A stretch of DNA of 64,000 bases from Phorcus lineatus. Taxonomy: Eukaryota; Mollusca; Gastropoda; Trochida; Trochidae. The DNA lies in assembly GCA_921293015.1 (NCBI GenBank), contig OV121085.1, positions 22,767,911-22,831,910 on the forward strand, in the 5' to 3' direction. A program made the position numbers and the translations under genes. Of this stretch, positions 33,970 to 64,000 are shown in pieces (the first letter of the stretch is position 1; the number at the start of each line of letters is the position of its first letter). The notes under the pieces were generated by a model. The model ran no database searches. It was given only the letters and a program-made list of their open reading frames with translations, and was not told where the DNA came from.

Positions 33970-35200
33970 CAGGAAAATGTGGATTGTAATCACAAATGTG
34001 TAGAGGAAGTTAATAAGAAAATTGAACGGCTTTAAACTGAACTTGCAAAGCAAACCAACGTGAAACGGACCTACAGGCGAAATCGATGCGTGACAACCTG
34101 TTGTTTGTGGGTGTGAGTGAAGAACTTGGAGGTCCGGAGGTTATTATATCTCCTGTGGAAAACAGTTTTGGATGATAAATGTATATCTCACACAACTCAC
34201 TATAGGCCTACTGAGGGTTATAGCACTCATCATGATATCATGATAGGTAAGAGATGATGGAGTGAGTGAGCGAGTTATTGTTTAACGCCGCTTAATTGGG
34301 CAATATTCAGTCATTAGCGGCGATAAGAGATGATTGAACTAACCATATTTTATACTATAGCCGATATTACTACCAACTATGAAATGCATATAAATACACC
34401 ATCAAATATATACACAAGACTAAGATTACTAACCTTAGCTATATGAGTCATAAACACAATCCAGATCTCCTTGACCTCTTGGTCCAAGAATGGACTTTAC
34501 CAGGACACAATATAAAATCACATGTACCCAACGACGTGGCTGACAAAGCTTATGAGAGATTGAAATAACTTAACCTTTAAAAAAATACTTTGCTTGGGAG
34601 AGCCTAGAATAATAGGGCTTACATTGACCTAAGCATGGGAGCGCTTGGGGAGAGATTGCAGTGGGGAAAAGCAAGGAGTGCAAGTTACTAATGCTGACCT
34701 AAGATTAGATTGATGTTTAAGGAGATATTGTAATGATATAAAGTGTTGAATATAAAATAATGATTAAAATGGTTTAGAAATAGTTTATCTAATATGAATG
34801 AATTTCTCATCAAAATATGACAAAACAATAAAGTCAGTACATATGTTTATTTACAACTTAAAAATACTAACTCTGCCACATTACTATTGTCAAAAACATT
34901 TACGACACATTGATTTGGTCGACAAAGATGAGTTAAGTTTTGAACATGATGTTTACATTTGCATTGTGTGTATGTGGCAAGAAGTATCTGTCATGTATAA
35001 TGAATATTATGTTAATCTCTTTGATTTACTGCAGGAGTCATATGGTGAATGTAAAGGACGTGGCGAGGTGTCAATTATAGCTGATTTTAATGCTCGTGTC
35101 GGTGCTCGAGCTGATTTTGTTGTGGATGATATCTTCAAAAGAAATACAGATGATATAAGTTACAAGCCTGTTAATATACAGAGGAGAATAGAATTGATCC
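33970..35200 (+). pseudogene. decayed LINE: ORF1 and endonuclease remnants
   Basis: At about 34030-34160, across frame breaks, one can read LQAKSMRDNLLFVGVSEE, resembling the RRM part of L1-type ORF1 proteins after a Gln/Lys-rich helix. At 35020-35130 NLFDLLQESYGECKGRGEVS followed by ADFNARVGARADFV matches the GDFNAR motif of apurinic endonucleases, with Ala for Gly. Both parts are broken. They may belong to a different LINE family from the reverse transcriptase that follows. Confidence 0.65.
34262..34323 (-). mobile_element. ~62-bp truncated retroposon with 14-bp target duplication
   Basis: Third copy of the GTGAGTGAG..GCGGC unit. TAAGAGATGATNGA flanks it at 34248-34261 and 34324-34337 with one mismatch. 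It is inserted in the LINE remnant. Confidence 0.7.
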
Positions 35201-35204
35201 AAAT

Positions 35205-41628: not shown

Positions 41629-41686
41629 ATGGATCAAGTACCCGCCGCCATGGATAGGCAACTGGACGTGCTTCAGTGTCATAGAG
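41629..41686 (+). CDS. WDR77: WDR77 coding exon 1
   Basis: ATG at 41629 (A at -3, G at +4) gives MDQVPAAMDRQLDVLQCHR plus one base, ending at donor GTAAAA. An in-frame TGA lies three codons upstream. A second in-frame ATG at 41650 sits in a perfect Kozak context (GCCGCCATGG) and aligns with the MERQLE of human WDR77, so either codon could serve. The split Asp20 codon (G|AT) is completed by exon 2. Confidence 0.88.
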
Positions 41687-44600
41687 GTAAAATCTTCTTT
41701 CTCTTGAGAAATATTTCGTTCGCCATATCTGATACTTTCCAGTTGTAGACTGTTATTGCGTGAATGTATCGAAACAAACGTGAAGCCTCGAAGACAGTGA
41801 GAATAATTTATCACTGTGTGTGGAACACGAGGTTCGCGACAAAAGAGGGAATATGAATCTTAGTGAAGGTTGCATCTTAGTTTATTCCATCTAGTTAACA
41901 AGTCTACTTACTGTCTAGGTTGGGGGTGGGGAGGGGAGGGGAGGAGACTTTTCGGGATTGTGTAAGTAAGGCTAGTGACATTTGTGATCTAATGTGTAAC
42001 CTGGCCAAGTTTGACAGGTCAATCATGCTAATACATTCTGGACTTATCAGGCGTATATAAACAGTGCCTTGAGGGTCAAATTTTAATCAGAATGTAGATA
42101 GTAAATTCAATGTAATGTGAAGATATATTTCATTATAGTACGAGTTGTATGCTTCTCCAGAGGGGAATATGGTCTGATGTACCATCTTTGTTGCGGTGTC
42201 GCCCGACCGTATTACCCTCAGGAGAAGCATACAACGTTTTTATCTTACCGTTATGTTTCACGTATTCATAGTTCTCACATGACGTCACAAACCTCAGTAA
42301 CGTGGTCCGTCAGCCATTTGTGTGGACAACCAGCGCAGGCCAGCCACAGCGGCTAGTGCATTCTCACTATATTCTCCGTAGAATTAACGGACTATCTTAT
42401 GGCCGAATTAGCTCCATCTTAGCGAATCTTGCACACATTATAAAATAAACTGATTGCAAGACATGTTCATGTCGTGTCTATGTGAATATTTGTACTAGCG
42501 GAGAAATATTTCACACAATTTGAACTCGCTTCTGCCATCGATGTGACTTCCAACTTTCTCCAAAAAAACTTGAAATGAAAGGAATAATATCTATCCTACC
42601 CCTTACATGCTGTGTTTGATGGCTTGTAGACTAAACACCATTTACAGTGGACATGCTATTTTTTATTTTCTTTGTTAAAACATTTTACATCGGGTATTAT
42701 AGTTATTTTTCCAATTCTGATCACAGGAAATTAAATTTTAATATAGATGATAAAATATCCCCTCCCAAACAGCAATAGACTATTGACAAAGGAGAGGAAT
42801 ATTATTATCTTGGTTTCATTTCTTTTGAAAATGCATGATTAATTTCACTTTCCCGTGATTATGATTTTGGGTTACCCAAAAACATCCCACTTGTGAGACA
42901 CATGCGGTTTGTCTAAATGTCATTAAAAAATCTTCTTCATAATTTTTTCCGTATTCATAAAATATTAGCCACATTTTGAATTAAATTCGACGTCCAGATC
43001 ACAATGAACTTTATTTTTTGCTCTCTTTGTGAGCATGATCAAGCTATTGAAAAAAATGTCTTGACGTACGCTTATTGATATGTGATAAGACTATTATTTG
43101 TATCTAGTACAAATGTCATGTACCGTCACTCATAAATGATTGTGCGATTCATTATTTACAATTTCAATGCACTTGTATTGTATGTATTTGTTTTAACAAA
43201 AACGTGTATACAAGCAAGACGTTCATGAAACTAATATTCTTTACATTTAATTAATCCGTTTATAAATAAGTTTTCTCTCTTTCTCACTATTCTTGTGTTG
43301 TTTCGTCATTAGGTATTGAAGGTGAGAAGATTGATTATGTGTCAACTATGTCATATCAATGGCAAGAGATAGAAAATTTAAGCTGATACACATAGACAAA
43401 GGTTCTACAGGTCAATTAAAAACTTAATTGAGATATGCGATGAAAGGAAACTATTTGTTTTCATATTAGAGAGTATCGTTGACGCAAAGTTTTCAGTTAG
43501 TTATTATAATAACAAAAAGTGCATGTGTCAGACTCAAACAGTTAAATGTTCAATTGATTCCTTTTGAAAAAAATGATATACCATGTAGGAATTTACGTCT
43601 ATGAATCATTATGTTTTGATGGCAAGATTTGATGGCAGTTGAACGTCTTTAGAAACGAGTCTCTTACACAAGCACGGGAGACATCAAACTTGTGGTCTTT
43701 ACTAAGAGAAAGAAAGATTATCGTAGGTTTGAGAATTCTTTCAAAAGGTCCATATGTTCATATCTATTGTTTCTACATAAAATAAGTTGTGATCGGTTTA
43801 GCGATCAAGCGTCCAGCGACTGCACATCCACGACGAATGTCTAGGAATATCTTATACCATATGTATATGCCTTCTACTTACTAATCATAACATTCTTAAC
43901 TAAATATGATATCTCGTATAAAGAAAATATTAAGTAGGTTTATCCTTTTTCTCAGGAATTGTGCGGTAGTATGCTCACTGTCGTCGAAAACTTCGGTCGA
44001 TTCAGTCCGTGTTAAATGGAGTCAAAGTATATACTGAAGTGGGAATTATTTAAAAAACCCGACTCCCTGTTACTTTATTTTCCACCTCTGCATCTCCACC
44101 TGAAAGAAATAGCAAATATACAACCCTTTATTGTGTTTAGAGAGTCAGTTACACACGATCATTACTGAGCCGAGTGGCTTGCTTGTCCACACAAATGGCT
44201 GACTTCCGGTGACAGTCTCGCAGTGAAAGGTTTAGTGAAACCTATGAATTATTTACTTTGAAATAAAAATCCGCAATAAGTGACCTTATAGTTACGGGGC
44301 TGGTGATTTGCCGAACTCGCATAGGACAATAACAAAAATCAGCTAATAGATCAGCTGGTGTGTTTGCCGAACTTTGCGACTATGAGGGTTCATTTTCTTA
44401 CAATTACGTTGATTCACTGAATAGTACAGTTCTAAAACATTGACGATGTTTGGTTCATTTTCACATTTGCTTGATTGTTGAGAACTGAATAGTCACAAAA
44501 GAGGTCATTTATGTCCAGATCTTCTAAGAAAGCAAGCTGGTTTATATGTTGGAGTTTACTTGGAGTTATCAGCAGCAATGACGTCCCCCCTGACCTTGGA

Positions 44601-47600
44601 CTTGTGACGGCTTTAATGGTACTTTCGAGAGAAGTTGGTTTGAAAGATGGGTTAAAGCGTGGTTCATTTGCATTTTTTTCGGTTTGACACTCGTTGATAA
44701 ACGGCAAGTGAACTCACATTATCTTCGACATTGTCGACATCCTCAAAACTAGGATTTTGCCCCTTTTCCGTCAGTTACTCTTTCAGAATTTTGGCTGAGG
44801 ATAAGTTTGATTCTTCGTATTGTCAGGAATCACTTTTGAACGTTTTTCTAATATTTCTTTAAGAGAATGTGAAGCAAAACGTTAATTGGTCGCCATTGTG
44901 AACGCCAGCTGAGGAATGTTTACAAACAGACTCTTTACATCATTTGCATCCGCAATATTGTAAAGAAATTACGTAAACCGAAGCCAGCGTTGCTGTATAG
45001 AGCTTATATAACTGAGTTCGGCAAATAGCTGTTGTTATGGCAGCGGGTAATGTTTTTTCCATTTGTCACCCTCTTGGATGGTTGACACGGAATCTTCTAA
45101 TTACAATGTTGACCAATGAAATTAAAGTATTTTACATAAAGGTAAGATAAATATTTATTATCACATGCTCGAGTGAGTACCGTATTTCCCTAAACAGGCA
45201 TCCCCCGGCCTCTATTCGAGGAAATACAGTATTTGCTTGAAATAGTATGAATACTTCTAAATTTGTACTGACTTTTGTATAAGATTTGTTTGTTAAAAAC
45301 CTTTCGCTAATTAACAACTGCCTTGACATATATTGCTCAGAATTTTTTTTAACATAGACACAACTTTTTATCTCATTTGTTGAATCATTTTGCTTTCACA
45401 GATTTCAGATTCAATCTTAATTCAACATCATTTCAACATTGATAAACAATATCGTCTTCAATGTCAGATTGCCTGTTTAGTTATATCATTTTGATTATAT
45501 TTGCTGATTACAACAAAGTTTAACGTACGCAAACTTTAATACAAAATTGCATTTAGTATTTAGTAATTTCATTTGTTGTAAATTGTTAAGGCCATTTTAT
45601 ATATAAGAATCATCGTCAACAACAACATTATAACCTATTGTAAAGGACAATATGTAGAGCAAAGTCTGATCATTAAGCTAATTAGTAGTCCAAATGATTC
45701 ATTGTAAATGTCAAACTAAATGTTGATGCAGACTTTATTTGCAATACAGAATCAGTTGACTGTCTGATTAAACAGATGATTTGATTAAAGTAACATGAGT
45801 ATGTATCTTAAAAATCTGTGTGGCTTTGATATATTTTGATGTCTCTTCTTGGATTGGAACCAGAGTCTGCCATGAGAGACCTGCATGCTTACCACTACAC
45901 TACTGTGCTCAACAGGTTAACTGAAAACATAAGTTCCATTCTTAAAGTATAGTCAATCCTTGTTTACAATCTGAAAAATTTAACCGCTCAATTGTTAATT
46001 AAAAATCAGTTAAATCAGATTTTATGAAAAATGTACCATGGTAGTGAGTGTTACTGCAGGTATAAGCCAGTGTCAGCATTATGCTGCATTACAGTGCTCC
46101 AGATAAGATGCGTATCTGCGTAAAATACGCATGGATAATTCAGATTTACGCATTAAAAATAAAATTCATGAGTGACAGATACGCATAACATCCCCAGATT
46201 ACGAGTCACATTTTGTTTAATGCTTGAATGTGAGTTGTCAAAAAGTTTCAATTCTACATGTCTGATCTTTACATCTCGAATAGTAGCCTGTTTAATGGCA
46301 ACCTGTGTGGAAACGAAGATTACAGAGTATCTAAATGATCTCATTCTTATCATAATCCACGTTTTGGGGCACTTTTGTATGATTCAAGCCCTTATACACT
46401 ATACAGCATAAATATCAAGCCTATTATTGAGTGCCAGAAGTTTATATATAAGGGAAATTTGCAAATAATGTTGTGGCAGTGAAACTCCCATACGTTTTTA
46501 TTCTAACACTGACAACCAGAATTGTTCATTTTTACAACATACAACATTTCAAGGGGCATGTACATTGACAACCCCAGTAGCAAATCTCGTAAGAATATCC
46601 AATATTCAAGATATTCAAGATGCTCGAAGGTTTCATCACAATGCATAGCCACGATTGTGTTGCAGGCTTTCTCCCTGAAATAATACTAGCAGCGTTAAAC
46701 CCCAACTCACCTCACCTCAAGATATTCAAGTTCAACTTATATACTTATATGAAAAATATAATGTCAAAATCGAATATAAATTTTCAAGACTCCTTATCAT
46801 TTTGCATAAGCTTAGTGTGGTGGTTGATAAAAACAACTCAACAAAGCTAAACACCTGTCACTTTCACCGTCCAGGCCATAGCCTATGCCTAGAAAATTTA
46901 CTGCGATGCTTGGTAACATTTATTTATGTCTATTTCTGTAGAAATAGTATACCCTACAAACCTAGTTCATGCAACTTTTATCTTGACCATAATTAAAGAA
47001 AGTTTTGTACTAGTCAACAAATGAATTAGTAAGCTTATGAAATGATTATTGTAACATGACTTCGTTGTATCCTCGATTCTGATTGGTCGGTTTGAAAAAA
47101 ATGTTGAATGACAATGAATACCCGTAAATTAGCAAAGGCGAATCACCGCGAATTGATACAATATGTTCACTAGTGCCAGCCAGACTCAAGTTTTAATTTT
47201 CCAGTCTCTTCTTCGTGCTGTACTCCGATTTGACAGTTGTCTTTGTCCTTTTTTATATTGTGTCTACCGGTAGATATCACAAATACACTTTAATATGATT
47301 AATTTTTAAGAACAAAGATATTTTCAGCTGGCTTACTTAGTCCAAGTTTGCCACAAAGTTTCATGCGGCCGCCTTCTTTCGAATGCCGTTCTCATGGTAT
47401 GACGTCACAATGGCCAACCGTTTTGACGTCACAATGTTTGCGTCGCTGTCACAATGGTATTGGGCTAATTCAAGACTTTGTACTCAAGGTTTTACGATAT
47501 TTTTCTACGAGCTTTATAATTGTTGATTTCGGTCTCGAATTAAACAAGTATGTTGTAAGGTCTCGCTGTTACGAATGACGCTATTTGTTAATATCACAAC

Positions 47601-50600
47601 AATGTTTGTAATGTAAATAATGCCGTGAATTCACATCAGTTAGACCTTATCTCACCTCATACAGAAATAGAACAGTCACAAAGTCCTTTCCACACAAAAT
47701 TAAGTACGCAAAAACAGAGTTCGCTCTTAAACTTCTGATAACTAACGGCCATGTTACAATATCGATAAATAGTTGCGTTTGTAAAATTTCCAGGATTCAT
47801 TGTTATTCAACGCCCGCAAATTTAAGCGTTTAAAACCTGTTGAATAACAATGAATCCCGGAAATTTTACAAACACAACTATTTATCTTCTAAGTAATTAC
47901 ATCACATCTGTTTTTGCGATTTAGTAAGCTTACTAAATCATTACCAGTTTGTTGTAATCTCTGATATGAAGCAGAACTTGAACAGTTTGCATGTTGAGCC
48001 CATGAAGGCGCAAGCTTATTATGTTTTGAAAGTATTTTGAAAATAAAAATGATCCAAGTAAGAAATGATGTGTAAAGAATGAACGCTCGAGATTGACAGC
48101 AAAAGACTAAGTGTAATTTCCCTATTTTCGATCAGATTTGAATATTAATTTAAACATCAGTTTTCAATGGAATATTTTAGATATTTTCGCAATGTTCATT
48201 GTTCTCTCTACAGTTAAGTATGTCGTTCAAATTAACTTTTGATTCAGGGTAAGAGTAACTTTAGGGGAATATGTTTTAGAAAATGGATTTGTTGCATTAA
48301 GAGCATAAAAAAAACTAGCGACAACATTGATTATTCTTCCATTTTTTTTAGAAGAAATATTAATAGATAAGAACAAATAACTTTTGGCAATGCCCAAAAA
48401 AAACAATGTATCAATAAAAGTCCTGGAGTGGTCATAAAATATTTCATTTCATTTAAATTTAATGGTTAAATTCCAAATCAGGTCAAAATGTTGTATAGTC
48501 TACAATGCTGTTCATGAAAAAAGGTATTCAACGGTTTTCTTCTGCGATGTCTTTGTAATCTTGGAAATAGCACAGGGGAGATATTATGTGACAAAACTAG
48601 TAACCTTGTTAATGATAACTTCATTATGATGGTCTGTAGTGTGTTACTTTATGTAAATATTCATAAATGCCACTAAACATAGTATAGTTGCATTTCGAGC
48701 TACGTTCAATCGATATGCAGATAACAGTATTGCAAAATGGCATTGTAATTTGTTACTGCTACGAGGGGAAGTCAATAAGTTCATAGAAGTGAGTATTGAT
48801 ACACCCCAGAAGACATCATTGTTGATGTCATTATTGATATAGGCCATCTGACAACAGTTTACAGACATAAACAACCTTCCTGATCATTTACTTGAGATTT
48901 ACAGCCTGTTGATCATAAGTACTGTAATCATGGAAAGTTCTAAACCTAAGCATTGTGCGGTTATCAAGTTTGTCAGGAAAGAAGGGGTGAATGAGACAGA
49001 AATACATGCACGTTTGACCAATGTGTATAGGAAAGACGCCCCTCAATATTCTACTGTTGCAAAATGGTCAGCTGATTTTGAGTTGGTTGAAGCTCCTTGG
49101 ACGATCACCCACGGTCAGGAAGGCCTTTTGAAACTATTACAGATAATATGGTTGCAAGAGTCTCAGGCTTAATCATGTCTATCTTAAAATAAAGATTGGT
49201 GCGATATCTTGAGAGTGTGGCATTTCTCATGGAAGTGTTTGCACCATAATTCATGAGCACTTGCACAAGAAGAGGAGGCGTGGCGTGTTGACTGCTGGAG
49301 TTATGCTTCTTCATGACAACGCTCCAGTGCACAAGAGTCGTATTGCACATGCTGGACTTCAACAAGGATGCTTTCAACAACTTAACAATCCCCCTACAGT
49401 CCAGATCTGACTCCAAGCTACTTGTATCTGTTTTGCAATTTGAAATCACACTTGCGTGGTATGAGATTCAGCGATGATAATGAACTCAAGGCAGTCCAAT
49501 AGACTAAAGGGCAAAGTGCATCGAGGTCCAAGGAGATTATATTAAAAACAAAATCAATATCACAACCATTAGCTTTCGTTTTACATCAATTTTCATTTGA
49601 CCTTTTGTAGGTCATCTGGCATGAACTTAGGCCAAAGGGGCATGTGGCATGTCATCCATCTGTCAGTAAAATTTTCACTATTTCAACATCTTCTCCAGAA
49701 CCATTGACCCAAGAAATCTGAAATCTTGTGACCCTTCAATACATAGCTGCGACGCTGGGCATTAGTTTTGGATAGGAATACACAATACTAACAGATGTTC
49801 TTCAATCTTCACATGAGCAAGCTCTCTGCAAGATGGATGCCAAGAATGTTAACAGGTGACCAGAAACAGAAACATTTGGCTTGATTCAGGGGATGCAGGG
49901 ATAATTTCCTGAAACTGTTAGTGACCCAGGAGAAGATGTGGGTACATCACTTCCACCCTGAAACTGTTAGTGACCCAGGAGAAGATGTGGGTACATCATT
50001 TCCACCCTGAAACTGTTAGTGACCCAGGAGATGTGGGTACATCACTTCCACCCTGAAACTGTTAGTGACCCAGGAGAAGATGTGGGTACATCACTTCCAC
50101 CCTGAAACTGTTAGTGACCCAGGAGAAGATGTGGGTACATCACTTCCACCCTGAAACTGTTAGTGACCAAGGAGAAGATGTGGGTACATCACTTCCACCC
50201 TGAAACTGTTAGTGACCCAGGAGATGTGGGTACATCACTTCCACCCTGAAACTGTTAGTGACCCAGGAGATGTGGGTACATCACTTCCACCCTGAAACTG
50301 TTAGTGACCCAGGAGAAGATGTGGGTACATCACTTCCACCCTGAAACTGTTAGTGACCCAGGAGAACATGTGGGTACGTCACTTCCACCCTGAAACTGAT
50401 GTGGGTACATCACTTCCTCCCTGAAACAAAAGCTAACAATGGAAGCAGGCCAGTTCCCAACCCCAAAAAGGTTCAAGCAAGTTTCATCTGCTGGAAAGGT
50501 GATGGCCTTAGTGTTTTGGGATAGCTGAGTATCATCATGATAGATTACTAAGAGAAGGACCAAACTATCAACGGGCCATATTATGCTAATGAATTCAGGC

Positions 50601-53600
50601 AATTAAGGGCAGCCATCGAGGCCAAGCGGCAAGGGAAGCTCAGTGCAGGAGTGCTACTCCTTCAGGACAATGCTTTTGTCCACACAGCACATTTTTCTGT
50701 CACTTCCATGACCGAATATGGCTTTGAAATTCTTCCATATCAATCTTACTCCCCAGATTTGGCAACATCGAACTCCTCCTTCTCAAATCTGAAGAACCAT
50801 TTAGGTGGACATGTTTTTGCTGATAACAGCCTAATTGCTACCTTGGAGAGATTTCTTGAGACCCAGTATGCAGAGTTCTACAAGAATGGCACAATGAAGC
50901 TGGAACATTGCTGGTCGAAATGTGTTGATGTCAGAGGACACTATGTAGAAAAATATAATGCAAAAAGTGATGCTTTGGTCTTGTTTTCTATGTCACTCTA
51001 CAGACTTTTTTTATTCATTTTCGTGGGCCTACCATGGAAACCTTCATTCAATGCAATGATTTATAATTTACTTCTGTAGAGAGTATCCCACAGTAACATG
51101 ATACCCTTATAAGATAAAAAATCTGGATTATCAACCTTTATGAACTGTTTTTGCAAAAGATTGCTGCGAAACTTTATTAAGCAAAAGAGGAATATGAATG
51201 GCCGAGTTTTGACAGAAAAATCAATGGGCGTAAAATATCATGAATATTTTAAAAATGAACAATAGGAATTTGTTTTAGGATTGTTGTATTTCTTCCGACA
51301 TTTTCTTGTTTCTCCCCTTGAAAAATTATCAATAAAGTTGTATTCTTTGGATAACTGTCATACTTGTTAATTGCCACTCCAGTTAATAAAAAAGTTTGTC
51401 TTTAGTATTTTTACTGGTTCTATGGAAACATGACTGTAAAAGTGACTATGACAAAGTAATTTGTGTGCAGCATATGATATCCCTTTTTGCCAGCTTCACC
51501 AAACTTGATACACATATGAACCATTATTCTTAGATGTACTTTTTTAGCTCATCAGGTCTGAAAGACCCGATGGGCTTATGGCATGGCATGGTGTCCAGCG
51601 TCCGTCCGTCCATCCGTCCGTCCATCCATCCGTCAATCCGTAAACTTTTCACTTTTTCGACTTCTTCTCCAGAACCAATGACTCTAGAGAGCTGAAATTT
51701 TATGTGCATACTCCTTGGCAAATGGGGATTCTAAATTGTAGATTTCGTGACCCCATGACCCCAAATGGGGTCACAAGGGTCAAAACCTTAAAAATCTATT
51801 TTAATCTTCTTCTCCAGTTCCAAAAGGTCCAGAGAGCTGAAAAGTTGTGTGTAGACTTCTTGGCCAATGGGGATTCTAAATTGTAGATTTTGTGACCCCA
51901 TGACCCCAAATGAGGTCAGAGGGGTCAAAACATGAAAAACCTATTTTCATCTTCTTCTCCAGTTCCAAAAGGTCCAGAGAGCTGAATAGTTGTATGTAGA
52001 CTCCTTGGGCACTGGAGATTCTAAATTGTAGGTTTGGTGACCCCATGACCCCAAATGGGGTCACAGGGGTCAAAACCTGAAAAACCTATTTTCATCTTCT
52101 CCAGTTCCAAAAGGTCTAGAGAGCTGAAAAGGTGTGTGTAGACTCCTTGGCCAACGGGGATTCTAAATTGTAGGTTTGGTGACCCCATGACCCCAAATGG
52201 GGTCAGAGGGGTCAAAACATGAAAAACCTATTTTCATCTTCTTCCCCAGTTCCAAAAGGTCCAGAGAGCTGAATAGTTGTATGTAGACTCCTTGGGTACT
52301 GGAGATTCTAAATTGTAGGTTTGGTGACCCCATGACCCCAAGTGGGGTCACGGGTCAAAACCTAAAAAACCTAATTTCATCTTTTTCCCTAGTTCCAAAA
52401 GGCCTAGAGAGCTGAAAAATTGTGTGTAGACTCCTTGGACACTGGGGATCCTAAATTGTAGGTTTGGTGACCACTTGACCCCAAATGGGGTCACAGGGGT
52501 CAAAACCTAAAAAACCTAATTTCATCTTCTTCTCCAGTTCGAAAAGGTCTAGAGAGCTGTAAAGTTGTGTGTAGACTCCTTGGAGACTGGGGATCCTAAA
52601 TTGTAGGTTTGGTGACCACTTGACCCCAAATGGGGTCACAGGGGTCAAAACCTTAAAATCCTACTTTCATCTTCTTCTCCAGTTCCAAAAGGTCTTGATA
52701 GCTTAATAGTTGTGTGTAGACTCCTTGGACAATGGGGATTCTGAATTGTAGGTTTGGTGACCCCTTGACCCCAAATGGGCAATGGGCATTTTTAATTTGA
52801 TTGTGAATAACTCGGACGTTGGGACAGGCTATCTTTCCTACACTGCCCATGACCCCATGGTCTAAACCCAAACACCTATTTCTATCAAAAGTCTGATGAG
52901 CTACAGAGCCCATGGCTCTATTTTTATGAAATAAAAATATGTTTAAACCATTGGCAGGGTAAGAACGACCTCTTTAAAGAATAGTCTAAAAGAATAAACC
53001 ATGAAGGAATCTTTTAAAAATGATAGCAAATTGGAGGTTTACATTTATTTATTTCTTATTTCCAGATGGAAAATGAATCAGAAATGGATATGAACTATGC
53101 TATACAGTTTGAATAAAATAAGATGTTTCATAAAATATGTTTGGCCGTTATCTCGGAAATCAATGCCCATTTTCTCTTTAATTATGGCCGTTTTCTCTAG
53201 TTTGCTATTGGCCGTTTTCCCCGATGGCCGTTTTCACTAGGACCCTTTTGAGAGTGACAACAATAAAGGATTTTTGTTTGTTTTGCGGTTTCAGTGAAAA
53301 CATGACTAACGCAATGAAAATTCAAGGAAGCTATGTCGTCTTGAACATATCCTCTTTACTATACATGATAGTGACACCATAGAAACATTATAAAAGAAAA
53401 GAATGATGATATTTCACTATGACCTGCCTAAAGGACTGATAACTGATGTAAGTGTGACTTGTAAGTTTGTGATGTCGGAGATTACAGTGAGGCCAAGTAG
53501 TCGCACAATGAGGTTGGAGGTATTTACCAGTGAGTGAGAGGCTGAGAGTATGTGAGTGCTGAAGTGCTGACTGCTGCAGCAGGGATGAGTGACTCCAACC

Positions 53601-56600
53601 CTCTTATTATTTACTAGTTGTAGATATAGCCGGGTTGACAGGTTGGACAACTGCGTGACATTCCTATTAACCAGTTTGAGACGGCCCACCGACCAACCCT
53701 CACACACAGACACATGCATCACTACATTTTGTTTTGCTTTTCACTAAAGGGTTAACCAAAGTCAAAGAGAAAACCACCATTCCTCTTATTTAGGACGAAA
53801 TTATTAAAATCATGTTTCTGACACTGAAAGGAATGCACAGAGTTCTGAAGTTAAGGATAGTTATTTTTAAGATGTATTTATGTGTGAAATTATTAAGATT
53901 TAACTTGTAGAGGAGGAAACATAAACTTCCACAGCCTGCTTGTAGCCCTTACCTACACTTACACTGTAAGCAAGGCTCTAAAGTGCTTTGTGTACCATTA
54001 TGGGTGATTTCCATGCCATTTAGCGCACTCTGCAACTGTTTTTGGCTTCTTTTTAGTTCAGGTTTTAAGGCCAGACAGGCTTATGGCATGGCTCAGTGTC
54101 CTTTTACTTTCCTTCCGGCACTGCTGCATCTCCAAACCTAAATATTTGTGGTTATGTAACTTGCACTTTGGGGGTCTGAAAATTTACTTTTGGGCTGATC
54201 CCCCCTCTTCCTAAAAAATGGCTGCAGGCATTTTCCCTTAAACCAATTTATAGCAAAGGAGACCAAAATGTTGAGGGTACAACTTTGTGTCATGGAGGCT
54301 CAAATTTTCAATTTGGTGATGCACCCACTTATACTGTGATGGGCATGGCTGGGTGTCTACCCTTAAGTCTCAAGAAATAATTGATTCTGGAGAGCTCACA
54401 TTTTAAGAATATCTTTCATTGTCCCACCCCAACAAGAAAGGAGTGGCATGGTTGAAATATTTGGGATGAAACCCTGTAAACCTACTTGGTATAATCGGAA
54501 GCTTAAATTGATGAAATAACATCTTTGTTACTTGTATACTCAGGTTTGTAGACATATTCTTAACAATCAAAAGGTTATGATTATACCCCCGCCTTACAGC
54601 GTAAGCGGGGGTATATAGCGTTCATTCTGTCCGTCCGTCCGTCTGTCCGTCCGTCACAAATCTTTGTCCGGAGCATATCTCCTAAACTATACATGCTAGC
54701 TTCACCAAACTTCATACACTTGTCAACCATGATACCTAGATGTGCCTTTTGAGGGTTAGACCAACAAATGATTTTTATTTTTTGCAGTTTCCATGGAAAC
54801 ATGACTAAAACAGTGACTCTATGACCAAGTCCTTTGTCCGGAGCATATCTCCTAAACTATACATGCTAGCTTCACCAAACTTCATACACTTATCAACCAT
54901 GATCCCTAGATGTGCCTTTTGAGGGTTAGACCAACAAATGATTTTTATTTTTTGCGGTTTCCATGGAAACATGACTAAAACAGTGACTCTATGACCAAGT
55001 CCTTTGTCCGGAGCATATCTCCTAAACTATACATGCTAGCTCCACCAAACTTCATACACTTATCAACCATGATCCCTAGATGTGCCTTTTGAGAGTTAAA
55101 CCAACAAATACTTTTTATTTTTTGCGGTTTCCATGGAAACATGACTAAAACAGTGACTCTATGACTAAGTCCTTTGTCCGAAGCATATCTCCTAAACTAT
55201 ACATGCTAGCTCCACCAAACTTCATACACTTGTCAACCATGATCCCTAGATGTGCCTTTTGAGGGTTAGACCAACAAATGATTTTTATTTTTTTGCGGTT
55301 TCCATGGAAACATGACTAAAACAGTGACTCTATGACCAAGTCCTTTGTCCGGAGCATATCTCCTAAACTATACATGCTAGCTTCACCAAACTTCATACAC
55401 TTATCAACCATGATCCCTAGATGTGCCTTTTGAGGGTTAGACCAACAAATGATTTTTATTTTTTGCGGTTTCCATGGAAACATGACTAAAACAGTGACTC
55501 TATGACCAAGTCCTTTGTCCGGAGCATATCTCCTAAACTATACATGCTAGCTCCACCAAACTTCATACACTTATCAACCATGATCCCTAGATGTGCCTTT
55601 TGAGGGTTAGACCAACAAATACTTTTTATTTTTTGCGGTTTCCATGGAAACATGACTAAAACAGTGACTCTATGACCAAGTCCTTTGTCCGAAGCATATC
55701 TCCTAAACTATACATGCTAGCTCCACCAAACTTCATACACTTGTCAACCATGATACCTAGATGTGCCTTTTGAGGGTTAGACCAACAAATGATTTTTATT
55801 TTTTGCGGTTTCCATGGAAACATGACTAAAACAGTGACTCTATGACCAAGTCCTTTGTCCGGAGCATATCTCCTAAACTATACATGCTAGCTCCACCAAA
55901 CTTCATACACTTATCAACCATGATCCCTAGATGTGCCTTTTGAGGGTTAGACCAACAAATACTTTTTATTTTTTGCAGTTTCCATGGAAACATGACTAAA
56001 ACAGTGACTCTATGACCAAGTCCTTTGTCCGAAGCATATCTCCTAAACTATACATGCTAGCTCCACCAAACTTCATACACTTGTCAACCATGATCCCTAG
56101 ATGTGCCTTTTGAGGGTTAGACCAACAAATGATTTTTATTTTTTGCGGTTTCCATGGAAACATGACTTAAACAGTGAATTTATGACTAAGTCCTTTGTCC
56201 GGAGTATATCTTCTAAACCGTACATGCTATCATCACCAAACTTTATACACTTATCAAACATGATCCATATTGGTGCGCCTTTTGAGGGTAAGACCAAAAC
56301 ATTATTTTTATTTTTTGCGGTTTACATGGAAACGTTACTAAAACAATGACTATCTGACAAAGTGCTTTTTCCTGAGCATATCTCCTAAACTATACATGCT
56401 AGCTTCAACAAACTTAATACACTTATCAACCATGATCCCTAAGTGAGCTTTTTGAGGGTAAGACCAACAAAGAAAGCCAGACTATAGTTTGAAGCGGGGG
56501 TATGTGAGCTGTGCTCACTTCTTTACTTGTTATTGTTTGTTTTTTAACAATTCATTGCATGCTTTATGCTTCAACCTGTTTTATCTGACATTGTGAAACA

Positions 56601-59600
56601 ATTAGCATATAGATAAAAAATACTTATATGTCTTCAATGATAGATTAATGAACTTGTTAATTGTCACTGTTGGAAATGCTATTGCATGTTTATTATGCAA
56701 CATTTGGCCATGCTTACTGTACATGTACAATGTCTATACTTACTAACCGACTTCCAGACACAGTAACAAGCTCTGTGTATTGCGCAGTTACATCAGATGA
56801 TAGGGCGTACAATTCAACTTTAGGATAGTGTCAATTTTGTTAGCAACAGATATGATGAGTTCAAGGAGAGTAAATTTTTTTTGGAAGAAGATTTGAGATT
56901 AATGAAAGAACAGATTAGCTCCTTCTCTGATCAAACAGAAATCACATGAAATTCAAAGAGGCCCAATTAATCAAAGGTGCCAATTGAGGAGAGATAATCT
57001 TATTTTCACTAATTTCCTTGAACACACAACGACCACCTCTGAACCTTTTAAGATTGTGAACTGCGGTTGAAGGACTTCATAGCTACTGAACTAAAACATG
57101 ATAACCCAGGCATCCATAGGATAGGCCCCAAGAGATCAACAAGATCACCACATGAAACTACAAGACCGCGCCCTATTGGGATGGGATGCTGTTAAAAGGT
57201 GCGGGGAAAGAACTAAAAGGCAAGCCCCGTCATATCATTCATGGCCATTCAAAATATGGTAATTTTTCAAATGAACCAATCAGAATCGAGTATGTATACA
57301 ACGAAATCATGTTACAATATGTCATAGATTCTCCAATGTGTTTATCATTAATTGTTGATTTTAATGACTTAGACTTTTCATTTCTGACCTCTGATGTCCA
57401 CTGCCCTATCTCATTTGCATTGGCCTATACAACATATTACCCAGTTTTAGATGAGCAACATTCAACTTCCAACACAGATAGGGACTAAACAAAAACCATA
57501 TAAATAAGATCAATGACTAGAATATCGACAAAACATAGATATTGAACATATAAAAACACTTACAAACCAAGCCAGTGTGTCACTCGCAGGTCAGCATGAT
57601 CTCTCATCAGTGATGGTTTGCTAGTTCCAGCCGATGCTAGCAGGTTTCACCGCAATGCATAGCCACAATGGTGTTGTGGGCTTTCTCCCTGCAATAATAC
57701 TAACAGCCTCGATAAGGGTGAAATACTCTTGAAAGCGGCGTTAACCCCAGATCACCTCACCTAACCTCACTATCATCTGTAAGAAGAATAAACGATGGTT
57801 TGGAAAAGATTGTAGGAAAAGACGTAAACAATTTCACAAAGCAAGAAGACTCTTAAGAAAATACAAATCTGAACTCAACATAAAGAACTACTGTAGTGAA
57901 TCAAATGCATACAAATAGTGTACAGCACAACTACAGTCTTTGTGGTCTTTAAACATTGTCATGGAAAATAGAATTATTGCATAAGAAATTATGCCCATGT
58001 ATATATGTGTGTTTGAACGTTGCAGATGGCGGACTGCTGCTGGGAGCGTCAAGTCTAAGCGGACGATATTGGCTGGGTTCGCTTTGGTTCTACTGCAACC
58101 CCACGCTGGCCCCAGATGTAGAGAAGTGCACTGCAGGGGTGCAGCTGGAGGCTGGATTGCAGGACGCCATGTGGGTTGACTCCAACACTGTGATTGTGGG
58201 GCTTGATACAGGCGAGTAGGACCAACTCTAGTGGGCAGGTTCTTGTTAGATGACTCCAACACTGTGATTGTGGGGCTTGATACAGGCAAGTAGGACCAAC
58301 TCTAGTGAGCAGGTTCTTGTTAGATGACTCCAACACTGTGATTGTGGGGCTTGATACAGGCAAGTAGGACCAACTCTAGTGGGCAGGTTCTTGTTAGATG
58401 ACTCCAACACTGTGATTGTGGGGCTTGATACAGGCGAGTAGGACCAACTCTAGTGGGCAGGTTCTTGTTAGATGACTCCAACACTGTGATTGTGGGGCTT
58501 GATACAGGCAAGTAGGACCAACTCTAGTGAGCAGGTTCTTGTTAGATGACTCCAACACTGTGATTGTGGGGCTTGATACAGGCAAGTAGGACCAACTCTA
58601 GTGGGCAGGTTCTTGTTAGATGACTCCAACACTGTGATTGTGGGGCTTGATACAGGCAAGTAGGACCAACTCTAGTGAGCAGGTTCTTGTTAGATGACTC
58701 CAACACTGTGATTGTGGGGCTTGATACAGGCGAGTAGGACCAACTCTAGTGAGCAGGTTCTTGTTAGATGACTCCAACACTGTGATTGTGGGGCTTGATA
58801 TAGGCAAGTAGGACCAACTCTAGTGAGCAGGTTCTTGTTAGATGACTCCAACACTGTGATTGTGGGGCTTGATACAGGCAAGTAGGACCAACTCTAGTGG
58901 GCAGGTTCTTGTTAGATGACTCCAACACTGTGATTGTGGGGCTTGATACAGGCAAGTAGGACCAACTCTAGTGGGCAGGTTCTTGTTAGATGACTCCAAC
59001 ACTGTGATTGTGGGGCTTGATACAGGCAAGTAGGACCAACTCTAGTGGGCAGGTTCTTGTTAGATGACTCCAACACTGTGATTGTGGGGCTTGATACAGG
59101 CAAGTAGGACCAACTCTAGTGGGCAGGTTCTTGTTAGATGACTCCAACACTGTGATTGTGGGGCTTGATACAGGCAAGTAGGACCAACTCTAGTGGGCAG
59201 GTTCTTGTTAGATGACTCCAACACTGTGATTGTGGGGCTTGATACAGGCGAGTAGGACCAACTCTAGTGGGCAGGTTCTTGTTAGATGACTCCAACACTG
59301 TGATTGTGGGGCTTGATACAGGCGAGTAGGACCAACTCTAGTGGGCAGGTTCTTGTTAGATGACTCCAACACTGTGATTGTGGGGCTTGATACAGGCGAG
59401 TAGGACCAACTCTAGTGGGCAGGTTCTTGTTAGATGACTCCAACACTGTGATTGTGGGGCTTGATACAGGCGAGTAGGACCAACTCTAGTGGGCAGGTTC
59501 TTGTTAGATGACTCCAACACTGTGATTGTGGGGCTTGATACAGGCGAGTAAGACCAACTCTAGTGAGCAGGTTCTTGTTAGATGACTCCAACACTGTGAT

Positions 59601-60348
59601 TGTGGGGCTTGATACAGGCGAGTAGGACCAACTCTAGTGGGCAGGTTCTTGTTAGATGACTCCAACACTGTGATTGTGGGGCTTGATACAGGCGAGTAGG
59701 ACCAACTCTAGTGGGCAGGTTCTTGTTAGATGGACACCTCATTTAATTATTTTCATTGGCCTCCCAGACTTATGGGAATGGAAGTCTTTGGCATGGTTGT
59801 CTTTTAGATTAGTTTACCTGGTCCAGGCTATGATAAAATGTTGAATGTAATTAATTAGGTTTATTCTTGTAAGTTCTTGAGGGCAAGTGCAGGAGTTACT
59901 CATTGTGATAGGCTAGGCCACAAGGTTTTTGTTGAAACAGTCTTTTGCTTCACTTCATGCACAATTCATATAATCTCATGGCTTACTTCACTTGTCATTG
60001 TTTTGTAAGATGGTATTTTATTAGTTGAGCTCATTGACACTTGGTAACAATGAAAGTTTAGTACTCTTTTAGGATTTGAATTCCCAAATTTTTTTAACAA
60101 ATGATGCTAAAAACAGAACAACTGCTTTGTCACTTTAAGATGTAACAACCATATGTTCCCACATCTTTGTTAGCAAGTTATGAGGTTATTTATGTTTGCA
60201 TTTCAGGTGGTGTTGCAGTGTGGGGGTTGGTTGACGACTTCCACACATTTGTGCTGTCCCATTGTGCAGTAGAGCATGACAACATCGTCAGTTCTGTCAG
60301 TGTCAGCGCTGATGGGAAGAAGGCAGTGTCAGTCAGCTATGATGGCAG
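41629..60348 (+). CDS. WDR77: WDR77 / MEP50 methylosome protein, 5' part of gene
   Basis: Exons 41629-41686, 58026-58211 and 60207-60348 join in phase to about 128 residues and continue beyond the window. Family role: WDR77 is a WD40 beta-propeller that binds the arginine methyltransferase PRMT5 and helps present substrates such as Sm proteins and histones. Visible: an N-terminal AMDRQLDVLQ helix, DGGLLLGASSLSGRYW then GSLWFY (first blade, residues 20-41), VQLEAGLQDAMWVDSNTVIV, GGVAVWGLVDD (82-92), and EHDNIVSSVSVSADGKKAVS starting the next WD repeat. This matches human WDR77 block by block (DGALLLGASSLSGR, EHDDIVSTVSV). Intron 1 is 16.3 kb GT-AG; intron 2 is 2.0 kb with a GC donor. Full-length homologues have about 340 residues, so the C-terminal two thirds lie downstream. 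Confidence 0.93.
41922..41944 (+). promoter_or_regulatory. G-quadruplex motif in WDR77 intron 1
   Basis: Four runs of four or more G separated by single bases (GGGGGTGGGGAGGGGAGGGG), on the coding strand, 236 bp after the exon 1 donor. This fits the canonical G4 pattern with 1-nt loops. Confidence 0.7.
42144..42235 (+). ncRNA. pre-miRNA-like hairpin in WDR77 intron 1
   Basis: The arms 42144-42174 and 42205-42235 pair over 31 positions with three mismatches (GTTGTATGCTTCTCC / GGAGAAGCATACAAC at the base) around a 30-nt loop. Size and shape suit a miRNA precursor, but a tiny fold-back MITE would look the same. No expression evidence. Confidence 0.4.
42309..44203. mobile_element. possible 1.9-kb element with 21-bp inverted ends
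   Basis: GTCAGCCATTTGTGTGGACA(A) at 42309-42329 is matched perfectly in inverted form at 44183-44203. No convincing target duplication is visible and the interior is AT-rich and non-coding. It could be a non-autonomous DNA transposon. Confidence 0.45.
44306..45026 (-). mobile_element. 721-bp element with 13-bp inverted ends and gene-like remnant
   Basis: Perfect inverted ends ATTTGCCGAACTC / GAGTTCGGCAAAT. On the minus strand from about 44896, broken frames read MATN, RFASHSLKEILEKRSKVIPD, NTKNQTYPQPKF and then an open 91-codon stretch (44707-44432). The pattern RFA..ILEKR..IP.NTK recalls the N-terminus of DUF3504/Crypton-type proteins, but this is only a resemblance by eye. Confidence 0.4.
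45179..45232. mobile_element. tiny MITE-like palindrome
   Basis: ACCGTATTTCCCT at the left and AGGAAATACAGT at the right are inverted, about 54 bp in all. The central CCCCCGGCCTCTATTCG is typical of very short TACCGTATTT-type elements. A related ATACGGTA motif ends the segment before 22513. Confidence 0.5.
45843..45912 (-). repeat. tRNA-like relic
   Basis: The minus strand carries an A-box-like TAGTGTAGTGGTAAGCATG and a B box GGTTCCAATCC at tRNA spacing. The acceptor and T stems do not pair well, so I read it as a tRNA pseudogene or SINE head. Confidence 0.4.
46093..46290. mobile_element. truncated copy of the 309-bp hAT-like MITE
   Basis: GTGCTCCAGATAAGATGCGT, ATCTGCGTAAAATACGCA, ATGAGTGACAGATACG and CTGATCTTTACATCTC match the left two thirds of 28441-28749. 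The right terminus is missing. Confidence 0.8.
46620..46718 (+). mobile_element. 5'-truncated SINE copy with 12-bp TSD
   Basis: The 3' third of the SINE at 36677-36991 (CACAATGCATAGCCAC ... GCGTTAAACCCCAACTCACC) is flanked by AAGATATTCAAG at 46608-46619 and 46719-46730. 5' truncation with a clear duplication indicates LINE-driven retroposition. Confidence 0.88.
47764..47886. repeat. 48-bp-arm inverted repeat (fold-back)
   Basis: GATAAATAGTTGCGTTTGTA ... TTGTTATTCAAC at 47764-47811 is inverted at 47839-47886 with about three mismatches and a 27-nt loop. A palindrome GATTTAGTAAGCTTACTAAATC (47920-47941) follows, and GAATTAGTAAGCTTA lies at 47030, possibly the ends of a larger ~0.9-kb element. 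Two CRE-like TGACGTCA sites occur at about 47400 and 47434. Confidence 0.75.
48757..49550 (+). pseudogene. mariner transposase remnant 1 (internally deleted)
   Basis: A terminal-repeat-like TACGAGGGGAAGTCAATAAG lies near 48758. At 48936-49110 the N-terminal HTH reads ESSKPKHCAVIKFVRKEGVN, ETEIHARLTNVYRKDAPQYS and TVAKWSADF. Broken frames continue with ISHGSVCTIIHEHLHKK, then jump directly to VMLLHDNAPVHKSRIAHAGL (second catalytic Asp) at 49300-49360, LKSHLRGMRFSDDNELKAVQ, and CIEVQGDYI at the end. The segment with the first catalytic Asp is missing. Non-functional. Confidence 0.9.
49590..49745. repeat. decayed head of the AGCTCATC repeat family between mariner copies
   Basis: TGTAGGTCATCTGGCATGAA, GGGCATGTGGCATG, and then TTTTCACTATTTCAACATCT with TCTTCTCCAGAACCATTGAC correspond to the head of the 51541-52925 element. 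Strongly diverged. Confidence 0.45.
49750..51010 (+). pseudogene. mariner transposase remnant 2, expanded at the catalytic motif
   Basis: HMSKLSARWMPRMLTGDQKQ at about 49805-49865, then the tandem array at 49908-50430, then RFKQVSSAGKVMALVFWDS. From 50651 a long frame reads VLLLQDNAFVHTA, YGFEILPYQSYSPDLATSNS, LKNHLGGHVFADNSLIATLE, and finally EFYKNGTMKLEHCWSKCVDV. These are the second and third Asp regions of the DD34D mariner catalytic triad (LLxDNAxxH and SPDLAxSN, where the third Asp of SPDLAPSD is now Asn). Stops and frameshifts make it dead. Confidence 0.9.
49908..50430 (+). repeat. 49/46-bp minisatellite derived from the mariner catalytic motif
   Basis: Eleven copies plus a partial start at 49908, 49957, 50006, 50052, 50101, 50150, 50199, 50245, 50291, 50340 and 50389. 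In the transposase frame one unit reads LVTQEKMWVHHFHPET, equivalent to VTGDETWVHHFDPET around the first catalytic Asp. Three units lack 3 bp (46 bp). Since 49 is not a multiple of 3 the array is non-coding. Confidence 0.93.
51541..52925. repeat. AGCTCATCAG element with eight ~144-bp tandem units
   Basis: Head TTTTTAGCTCATCAGGTCTG with CGTCCGTCCGTCCATCC runs; tail GTCTGATGAGCTACAGAGCC inverted to the head. The core is eight units of about 143-145 bp (ACTCCTTGG..GGGATTCTAAATTG at ~51712, 51857, 52001, 52145, 52289, 52432, 52577, 52722). Most units hold TGACCCCATGACCCC ... GGGGTCACAGGGGTCA. The minus-strand 60-65 codon frames are shadows of the units. Related fragments: 3556-4213, 54050-54110, 60626-61760. 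Confidence 0.9.
52926..54575. other. unassigned part of WDR77 intron 1
   Basis: Contains short TGGCCGTTTTCTC repeats at 53143-53245, a decayed unit of the 168-bp family at 53250-53310, and a decayed AGCTCATC head at ~54050-54110. An exon-like AG|ATGGAAAATGAATCAG run with a TAA stop and AATAAA lies at 53064-53120; no homology is recognised. Confidence 0.4.
54582..56508. mobile_element. ATACCCCCGC element with eleven ~168-bp tandem units
   Basis: The left end ATACCCCCGC forms a hairpin with CGGGGGTAT at 54605-54614 around CTTACAGCGTAAG. The right end GCGGGGGTAT (near 56500) is inverted to the left. The core units contain CCGGAGCATATCTCCTAAAC, CTTCATACACTTATCAACC, and GGTTTCCATGGAAACATGAC. Variants (CCGAAGC, AATACTTTTT) recur every third unit in the first part, giving a ~505-bp higher-order period. 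Architecture resembles molluscan tandem-core elements such as pearl/HINE types; that link is my recollection. Confidence 0.85.
56850..57900 (+). pseudogene. decayed LINE: ORF1, endonuclease end and linker
   Basis: Broken frames read LRRDNLIFTNFLEHTTT (L1-type ORF1 RRM), LKDFIATELKHDNPGIHRIG and RPRPIG at 56980-57180. DLDFSFLTSDVHCPISFAL at 57367-57425 is the endonuclease SDH motif with V inserted. After the SINE, KNKRWFGKDCRKRRKQFHKA at about 57788-57850 is the linker before the RT. It probably belongs to the same family as 33970-35200 and 39030-40060. Confidence 0.75.
57607..57772 (+). mobile_element. 5'-truncated SINE in the LINE remnant
   Basis: GTTTGCTAGTTCCAGCCGAT ... GGCGTTAACCCCAGATCACC matches the 3' half of 36677-36991. 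It again interrupts a retrotransposon. Possible duplication TCTCATCAGT/TATCATCTGT with two mismatches. Confidence 0.8.
58026..58211 (+). CDS. WDR77: WDR77 coding exon 2, GC 5' splice site
   Basis: Acceptor GAACGTTGCAG; the exon encodes residues 20-81 plus one base of Gly82. Its last bases GATACAG are followed by GCGAGT, a GC rather than GT donor. The choice is forced by homology: CTT GAT ACA G joined to GT GGT GTT GCA gives LDTGGVAVW, while reading through gives GLDTGE and stop. The last 35 bases are the first part of the 74-bp array. Confidence 0.92.
58177..59730 (+). repeat. 74-bp array of WDR77 exon end plus splice donor, exactly 21 copies
   Basis: The span of 1554 bp equals 21 x 74. Each unit is TGACTCCAACACTGTGATTG..GATACAG (35 bp of exon), then a donor-like GCGAGTAGG or GCAAGTAGG and TTCTTGTTAGA. 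The first copy's first 35 bp are the real exon. Units 2, 3, 5-7 and 9-14 have GCAAGT; units 1, 4, 8 and 15-21 have GCGAGT. The minus-strand 63-codon frames are shadows. Confidence 0.97.
60207..60348 (+). CDS. WDR77: WDR77 coding exon 3
   Basis: Acceptor TTTGCATTTCAG, donor GTGATA after GATGGCAG. Codes GGVAVWGLVDDFHTFVLS and VEHDNIVSSVSVSADGKKAV, then SVSYDG with two bases of the next codon (Arg or Ser). This is the second propeller blade and the start of a canonical WD repeat. The next exon is not within the window. Confidence 0.93.
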
Positions 60349-60662: not shown

Positions 60663-61542
60663 TTTATCTCGACTTGGACAGCAATGTCGGCTACTGATTG
60701 GCCAAAAGCGGTCACGTGCCGTAGGTATATCTTTCTATGTTAAACTGGGTCACGCGCAACCCTAGTAACGAGAGACAATGTCAAGAGTTATCTCCCTTGT
60801 CCCATTGTAAACAAAGGCTACGCTACGCTGGTTTGTTGAACACTACCTTTACACGCTCAGTGTATATTCCCATTTATTAAAGTCATATCTTATAATCACA
60901 CTGCTGGAACAAGAGTAAGCAATTCTACAAAAGACGCGCTGGTGCCGAGAAAAAAATTGTAACAAGTCAAAAGGCTTGCTAACGGCCTGTCGGTTCACTC
61001 GCTCGCAGCGGGGTTGTCCATCAGCGAGCTGGAGATTGGAAGGATGAATCAGAAAACCAATCTATACACATACCAGACGAGGTCATCACCGACTCTTCAT
61101 TCACAATCATTCATATTCAAACCAATCAGCGCATTATGCAGTGATGCCTGCATGTTCTGTGCGCCCGACACTTTCAAACTAACTCGCTCCTTTCACGACG
61201 GTCGGCCATGACAGTCACAAAACTACAGAGATTTTAGCGCCGCTTCAAATCGAACGTTTCCAAGGTGGAACGTGTACACAAGGTCACGTGACCAAACAAT
61301 CAAAATTAAATAAGCCCTGCAATACTCGTTATGTTTATTTAATTTTGTTAATCCGCATTTACCGTCTAGTACCGCTGCACGGTACTAGACTATACTTTTT
61401 GAGTTTTAAACGGTGATGTAAAAATCATTTTTGTAACTTGATAAATAAAAAAGTTATACTGACAAGATCAGCCGCCATTTTGACCCATCCAATCTTTCAA
61501 GCCATATTTAAAGCATACAATAAGGGTCCTCGTCGAGATAAA
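60663..61542. mobile_element. 880-bp candidate element with 11-bp inverted ends
   Basis: TTTATCTCGAC at 60663-60673 is inverted as GTCGAGATAAA at 61532-61542; a further GGAC match sits inside. Interior GC-richer than its surroundings, with GGTCACGTG boxes. No coding evidence. Confidence 0.45.
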
Positions 61543-61545
61543 TAC

Positions 61546-61684
61546 GTTACCATGTGTCCGCGAGTTTGATATGGAGATATATCATGTGTCCGAGTCAAAT
61601 ATCAAACTCGAACTTCGTTCTCGTTTGATATTTAACTCGAACACATGATATATCTCCATATCAAACTCGCGGACACATGGTAAC
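61546..61684. repeat. 139-bp near-perfect palindrome
   Basis: The left arm GTTACCATGTGTCCGCGAGT ... and right arm ... ACTCGCGGACACATGGTAAC pair over about 66 bases with few mismatches, leaving only a few nucleotides of loop around 61615. Internal GATATATC motifs are themselves palindromic. Confidence 0.95.
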
Positions 61685-61760
61685 TTATAGTGTCCAGCTG
61701 TCCAACAGTTAACTTTTCACATTTTTTACTTCTTCTCCAAATACATTGGCTCAAATCTTG

Positions 61761-63119: not shown

Positions 63120-64000
63120 TTTTGCCAAGCGGAATATATGTCCTGTCATAATGGCGTAACTCTTGGCATTCGACAGTTACTTCGTTTATTGTCACGGCGT
63201 CCAGTCATTATGAACCAATGAACTTATATATATATTCAACCATAAATTAAGAAAAGGAGATTTGGCTCATGCACTTCTACCCATGATGACGCTCATTTGA
63301 AAAAGTAGATCATGAATAACGGGTACCAACATTCTTTAGGATTACATAGGATGTTTCTAACGCTTGCGACAGGTATGTTTTAATGTCATTGATTGTTAAA
63401 TTCAAAGACACAGATATTGCCACACGGTGTGAGTTGTTATACAAGATAATAATATAATATATGTTAGTTGAATACAAACGAATCATTCACTTAAGTACTA
63501 AGTTGCCATGAAAGTGAAGTGAAAGAAAAGAATTTTTCTGCGAAATATGATACAAATGCCACTATGGTAAACATTAAACTCTTTTTCTGGAGACAATTTA
63601 AAACTTCATATCAATAAATATATGATATAACAATATGTGTAATCCCATAATGGTGGATCTCTCACTGACCAAGTTCTAAACTTTTTTGATATAAACCCAC
63701 CCAAAATGGATTTGACGACTGAGAAGGAAAGTTGATATCATAAAGCAGTATATTTAGTATTTAGGAATTCTTTCGGTCATGCTATTGCCTCTATTTGGCT
63801 GTTGAATTAGCGTAAAAATACAGAGAATATCAGGAGTTTCAGCTGACAACTAGCACGTCACACACCGGACATGGCTTCGAGTCATGCTTCGATGATTTTG
63901 TCTAAGCGTTCGTCAGTCTCATTATTCTCATCATTAGTCTCATCATCTATTATCCAAAACGGGTATAAAAGGTCTCATAGTAAGTGAATTAAAGCGTATA
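63120..64000 (-). repeat. interspersed repeat family, copy 3, cut by window end
   Basis: Reverse-complement match to 20470-21490: TCCTGTCATAATGGCGTAAC, GGATGTTTCTAACGCTTGCG, and AAATGGATTTGACGACTGAG are all shared. It includes the central segment missing from copy 1. Confidence 0.8.

Follow-up and report, generated by a model that had tools for sequence, protein, structure and literature searches.

The 64,000-bp stretch of Phorcus lineatus DNA analysed here (hereafter the window) carries exons 1-3 of a gene that its sequence identifies as WDR77, and these exons are intact and well conserved (Table 1). In a PDB sequence search, the 128-residue join of the three exons, fused via the first of the donors described below, aligned with WDR77/MEP50 over 124 residues without a gap. 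The best match reached 116.1 bits (E 1e-32), and a query of exons 2 and 3 alone, with one extra residue at either end, scored 99.2 bits. MEP50/WDR77 or MGC81050 accounted for all 13 PDB sequences at E up to 0.001 with the longer query and for 13 of the 14 listed with the shorter one, the remaining sequence being RACK1. Comparison with human WDR77 by tblastn gave 54.7% identity over 64 residues for exon 2 (E 1.4e-17) and 46.8% over 47 residues for exon 3. Exon 1 was found from a weaker lead, the match PAAMDRQLD at E 0.40 among several weak tblastn matches. This lead is in frame with an upstream ATG, has the correct phase and is followed by a GTAAAA donor, and adding it kept the PDB alignment gap-free across the exon 1-2 junction. 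A Pfam scan of exons 2 and 3 alone returned no family at E 0.01, and tblastn revealed no convincing exon 4 or later WDR77 exon up to the window end at 64000. The boundaries of intron 2 fit the GC-AG type (CAG/GCGAGT ... TTTCAG/G), and the first donor yields a gap-free predicted frame. The MEP50/WDR77 alignments of exons 1-3 thus bear out the original prediction that the gene is WDR77, and the predicted end of exon 2 and start of exon 3 both hold.

Table 1. Features of the WDR77 locus and large tandem arrays in the window (positions are those of the window; TRF, Tandem Repeats Finder).
Feature	Position	Strand	Remarks
Other large tandem arrays	1-1993, 16134-19798, 28877-30390		units of 30, 43 and 98 bp; TRF
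WDR77 exon 1, coding part (predicted)	41629..41686	+	MDQVPAAMDRQLDVLQCHR plus first base of next codon; then donor GTAAAA
WDR77 intron 1	41687..58025	+	16,339 nt, GT-AG; contains three other large tandem arrays
Large tandem arrays inside WDR77 intron 1	49908-50427, 51654-52779, 54662-56471		units of 49, 145 and 170 bp; TRF
WDR77 exon 2	58026..58211	+	186 nt, divisible by three; gap-free in the MEP50 alignments shown
Array of 21 x 74-bp units	58177..59730	+	unit: 35 bp of exon 2 end plus 39 bp starting with the GC donor
Authentic GC donor, copy 1	58212..58217	+	CAG/GCGAGT; only one of the 21 to keep the frame; gap-free protein junction
TAG stop	58217..58219	+	computed stop for each of donors 2-21 used singly
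Candidate donors, copies 2-21	58286..59697	+	one every 74 bp, first bases at 58286 through 59692
Example of candidate 36-nt cassette exon	58324..58359	+	after GTTAG, before GC donor; frame and peptide DDSNTVIVGLDT computed
WDR77 intron 2	58212..60206	+	1,995 nt, GC-AG; 1,519 nt of array plus 476 nt 3' of the array
WDR77 exon 3	60207..60348	+	142 nt; then donor GTGATA

The end of exon 2 forms the first part of a tandem array. Tandem Repeats Finder reported the array at 58177-59732 with a period of 74, 21.0 copies, 98% matches and 0% indels; two further matching bases, TG, carry the match to 59732, beyond the last whole unit. An in-register cut gave 21 copies without indels or gaps, all 21 with GC directly after the exon end. 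The unit has the predicted composition, the last 35 bp of exon 2 followed by 39 intronic bp that open with the GC donor. The original prediction of a unit repeated exactly 21 times stands for number and register; identity is less than exact, since 14 of the 21 copies differ from the consensus at one to three sites and only seven (copies 3, 6 and 10-14) are identical to it. Four unit positions vary: 33 (20 C, 1 T), 38 (10 G, 11 A), 43 (20 G, 1 A) and 58 (15 G, 6 A), of which one is exonic and three are intronic. The two common variants run G-G, A-A, A-G, G-G, A-A, A-G through copies 1-6, whereas copies 10-14 all carry A-G and six of the seven copies 15-21 carry G-G. This is the kind of order that recent unequal exchange or slippage would be expected to leave.

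A repeat so long and so uniform is far beyond what chance would yield. Its head-to-tail units, within the range of roughly 15-100 bp, and their high identity fit a minisatellite or VNTR. Elsewhere in the window the unit has a single 11-base match and nothing more, and an exact-pattern scan of a viral contig collection found no stretch. The window as a whole gave no Rfam match at gathering scores and no tRNA with ARAGORN under bacterial settings.

The array lies in repeat-rich surroundings. When we grouped the 27 rows of Tandem Repeats Finder output and counted arrays of over 500 bp as large, seven large arrays, that of exon 2 included, occupied 12,184 of the 64,000 bp (19%). Because arrays fill so much of the window, one on an exon edge is unsurprising: when all seven were placed at random 200,000 times, an array covered at least one of the four edges of exons 2 and 3 in 38% of placements and a donor edge in 35%. 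This rough base rate counts the array under study and takes no account of selection. An exon edge would probably tolerate an array most easily on its donor side, provided that the exon survives in the first copy.

Other repeats were also seen in the window. The array at its left end starts at base 1 and may extend outside. An inverted repeat (8900-11353 and 11657-14089) has 2.4-kb arms, 96% identical and about 300 bp apart, each with an open frame of 147 or 154 aa; the one scanned had no Pfam family at E 0.01. A reverse transcriptase open frame lies at 35700-36674 (Pfam RVT_1, E 3.7e-21), and by eye the neighbouring frames (34798 to 37791) resemble fragments of a LINE-type element, although the two that were scanned had no Pfam family. 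Within WDR77 intron 1, a weak Transposase_1 match at 50552-51076 (19.5 bits, with a cut-off of 24 bits) is perhaps a mariner-like remnant. A dispersed repeat pair (20840-21427 and 63124-63698) is in opposite orientation and 84% identical over 596 aligned positions, and a 147-bp palindrome 3' of WDR77 exon 3 (61542-61688) is 91% identical to its reverse complement.

Intron 2 thus opens with 21 candidate donors, and a scripted frame test covered all 21 of these GC sites. Only the first keeps the frame, as the original prediction held. For each of the other 20, used alone, translation stops at the same TAG at 58217, 66-1472 nt upstream of the exon junction. Translated for donor 2, the product ends after 83 residues, in line with the predicted figure of about 83, and the stop codon is common to the other donors. 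All of these distances exceed the roughly 50 nt of the NMD rule. Two outcomes had been left out of the original list. Skipping of exon 2 (186 nt) would preserve the frame, whereas skipping of exon 3 (142 nt) would shift it; the other, a cassette exon within the array, is considered below.

The candidate donors differ little in computed strength. Copies 2-21 comprise 11 GCAAGT and nine GCGAGT sites, the former count being the one predicted, and copy 9 reads TAG/GC. The claim that GCAAGT is the better donor is upheld by its letters, which agree with CAGGTAAGT at 8 of 9 positions as opposed to 7 of 9, but the computed U1 duplex, with pseudouridine taken as U, slightly favours GCGAGT (-9.9 kcal/mol, as opposed to -9.5 for GCAAGT). 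The duplex energies therefore do not bear out GCAAGT as a stronger distal driver of switching. The general donor consensus is reported to allow A or G at the position at which the two differ, and GC donors to keep closer to the consensus at the remaining positions (PMC2490688). In silico GT forms of the donor gave -14.2 and -14.3 kcal/mol, so that the GC forms are far weaker, and the 21 donors are weak because all of them are GC; that of copy 9 is weaker again, at -7.7. With donors so nearly equal in strength, position should decide the choice. Two GT donors internal to the unit were considered and set aside: GGCRA/GTAGGA (-7.1 to -7.5) is weaker and by reading breaks the frame, and GRGCAG/GTTCTT (-5.8) is weaker and by reading sits past the TAG. 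RNA structure as a regulator was also set aside, as the folds of three stretches around the first units were no better than those of shuffled sequences (z 0.51, 0.30 and -0.09).

The closest known counterpart is the VNTR of human ABCA7 intron 18, which has a 25-bp unit and begins at the exon 18 donor (PMC5954066). In both genes the array starts at the donor of an exon, so the intron opens with many donor copies, the authentic donor (in WDR77, 58212 in copy 1) belongs to the first unit, and use of a later-unit donor loses the frame and leads to a premature stop, as computed here for 20 of 20. The ABCA7 unit is described as starting at GT without exon sequence, whereas that of WDR77 has 74 bp, 35 of them exonic, and a GC donor. 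The WDR77 array is the same kind of object as the ABCA7 VNTR, from which the exon sequence in the unit and the GC donor set it apart. In ABCA7, the second-unit donor, with retention of 25 nt, is reported in 2 +/- 1% of transcripts on one reading of the text, and its use was unaffected by array length; transcripts with a premature stop rose with cycloheximide, and longer arrays went with more exon 19 skipping and lower expression (PMC5954066).

Other repeats show more distant likenesses. A duplication in a potato RdRp gene (PMC4974935) also crosses a splice boundary in tandem and copies the signals, but it is described as a single duplication at an acceptor boundary with a new spliced intron, while in WDR77 a donor boundary has gained 20 further copies and there is no evidence of a new intron. 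The polymorphic mucins of Schistosoma mansoni (PMC2576457) likewise contain head-to-tail repetition of exon and intron within a gene. Their units, as reported, are of about 1 kb, take in a whole 27-bp exon with flanking introns and give repeats in the protein; WDR77, in contrast, repeats only an exon end and its donor in units of 74 bp. The length of the MIR137HG VNTR is reported to correlate with nearby splicing, but there, as described, both donors lie within the pre-miR-137 sequence and not in the repeated element, unlike those of WDR77 (PMC6692358). A VNTR in TERT intron 6 is linked to splicing by the title of the paper (PMC11830802). An earthworm metallothionein gene with intronic repeats (PMC12783039), as described, has no bearing on a repeated donor. 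A literature search that took in few subscription papers gave no similar array of exon end and donor among the matches listed, which is a weak negative.

Taken together, these observations probably describe a young intronic minisatellite that lies across the end of exon 2 and is tolerated with slight unproductive leakage, and not a control switch. The repeat unit would simply happen to span the exon end and its GC donor. Growth outward from the exon edge would leave the coding exon complete, with its donor in copy 1, and make intron of the other 20 copies; with exon and donor thus undisturbed, the array would be tolerated. The introns on either side of exon 2 are long, both far above the limit of about 250 nt for intron definition, so recognition would be expected to span the exon and pair the acceptor at 58025 with the nearest good donor at 58212. 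Splicing would thus nearly always take donor 1. Now and then donor 2, and less often a later one, would yield mRNA with an immediate stop that is passed to NMD, a small and nearly neutral loss of output without control.

The expectation about donor choice draws on work in human cells, applied here to another animal. The downstream of two donors is reported to win under intron definition (introns under about 250 nt) and the upstream one under exon definition (PMC9225289). In minigenes whose introns had 365 nt, splicing used the upstream of two identical strong donors exclusively; when the identical donors were weakened, smaller exons kept the upstream preference, while two constructs with larger exons preferentially skipped the exon. 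In unfiltered human data the downstream donor was preferred in about 60% of events (PMC9225289). By these rules, donor 1 is expected in WDR77, given its long introns. Against the reading as a tolerated minisatellite, the weak GC donors and a skip of exon 2 that keeps the frame could make the losses larger or different, and some skipping is possible because the donor is GC. The ABCA7 array, if a fair analogue, also speaks against neutrality, since its longer versions have lower expression and skip the following exon more often.

An unlikely alternative is that the array harms the gene, so that this allele or gene copy makes much less WDR77, or that its length in the assembly is wrong. The array looks young, with its 98% matches, so decay of the frame in exons 1-3 would not yet show, and an intact reading frame is no proof of a well-working gene; the lower expression seen with longer ABCA7 arrays (PMC5954066) points the same way. 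Weighing on the other side are the conservation of exons 1-3 and the order of the copies, in which single-copy variants (copies 9 and 19) and a mixed variant order speak against a simple assembly loop, although a wrong count is possible. Moreover, WDR77 is considered an essential gene in animals. The array might instead be an optional source of protein sequence, if the GTTAG at the unit ends served as an acceptor and the array supplied 36-nt cassettes, each encoding 12 in-frame residues (DDSNTVIVGLDT), between exons 2 and 3. We regard this as barely credible. The arrangement recurs at 20 unit junctions when the copies are compared, the frame having been computed for the example in Table 1, where the cassette reads through without a stop in the phase set by exons 2 and 3, and tandem 27-bp exons with introns are known from the S. 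mansoni mucins (PMC2576457). In copy 2, however, four of the six AGs tested (the AG at the donor itself left out) yield in-frame, stop-free exons; this is an easy product of chance, and the frame alone thus means little. The pyrimidine stretch of the GTTAG acceptor is short, a further AG lies 11 nt upstream of it, and the acceptor looks weak by eye and shows no sign of use. An intron confined to a single unit would have 38 nt, less than splicing usually allows; a workable one would have to leap at least one unit. A doubled strand early in the WD40 propeller would probably harm the fold.

A further alternative, raised in the original prediction, is regulated unproductive splicing, in which the array would draw a set fraction of WDR77 transcripts away from donor 1 to distal splicing and destruction, with feedback through WDR77-PRMT5 Sm methylation and the quality of the spliceosome. 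The uniform fate of distal splicing, with every stop well upstream of the junction, is what such a switch would call for; all of the donors are of the weak GC class, which has been tied to alternative splicing (PMC7242645; PMC2490688), and WDR77 works with PRMT5 on Sm proteins, inhibition of PRMT5 having raised detained-intron inclusion in glioma cells (PMC8150589). Yet we found no signal besides the repeat itself, the likeness of the copies would come from youth with no visible maintenance, the long introns around exon 2 favour donor 1 (PMC9225289), and the second-unit donor of ABCA7 is used at about 2%, independently of array length (PMC5954066). No WDR77 switch of this kind appeared among the titles and abstract starts of the literature matches listed, again a weak negative. 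The switch with its feedback is therefore very unlikely and, with no sign of it here, is not supported. A related idea is highly improbable, namely that array length, varying between individuals, acts as a dose setter by determining how much WDR77 pre-mRNA goes to distal donors and is lost; because WDR77-PRMT5 sets Sm protein methylation, weaker spliceosomes would shift donor choice, and array length would thereby tune a feedback loop on the splicing machinery.

As a probable tolerated minisatellite, the array may still be informative about how splice sites are chosen. With 21 donors in their own exon context, nearly constant in strength and varying in position, it is a natural experiment on spliceosome choice, and junction counts would test the proximity rule of exon definition in an animal gene without a minigene. 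It also illustrates how a repeat can occupy the edge of a coding exon with the frame unbroken, as growth outward would keep the first copy intact.
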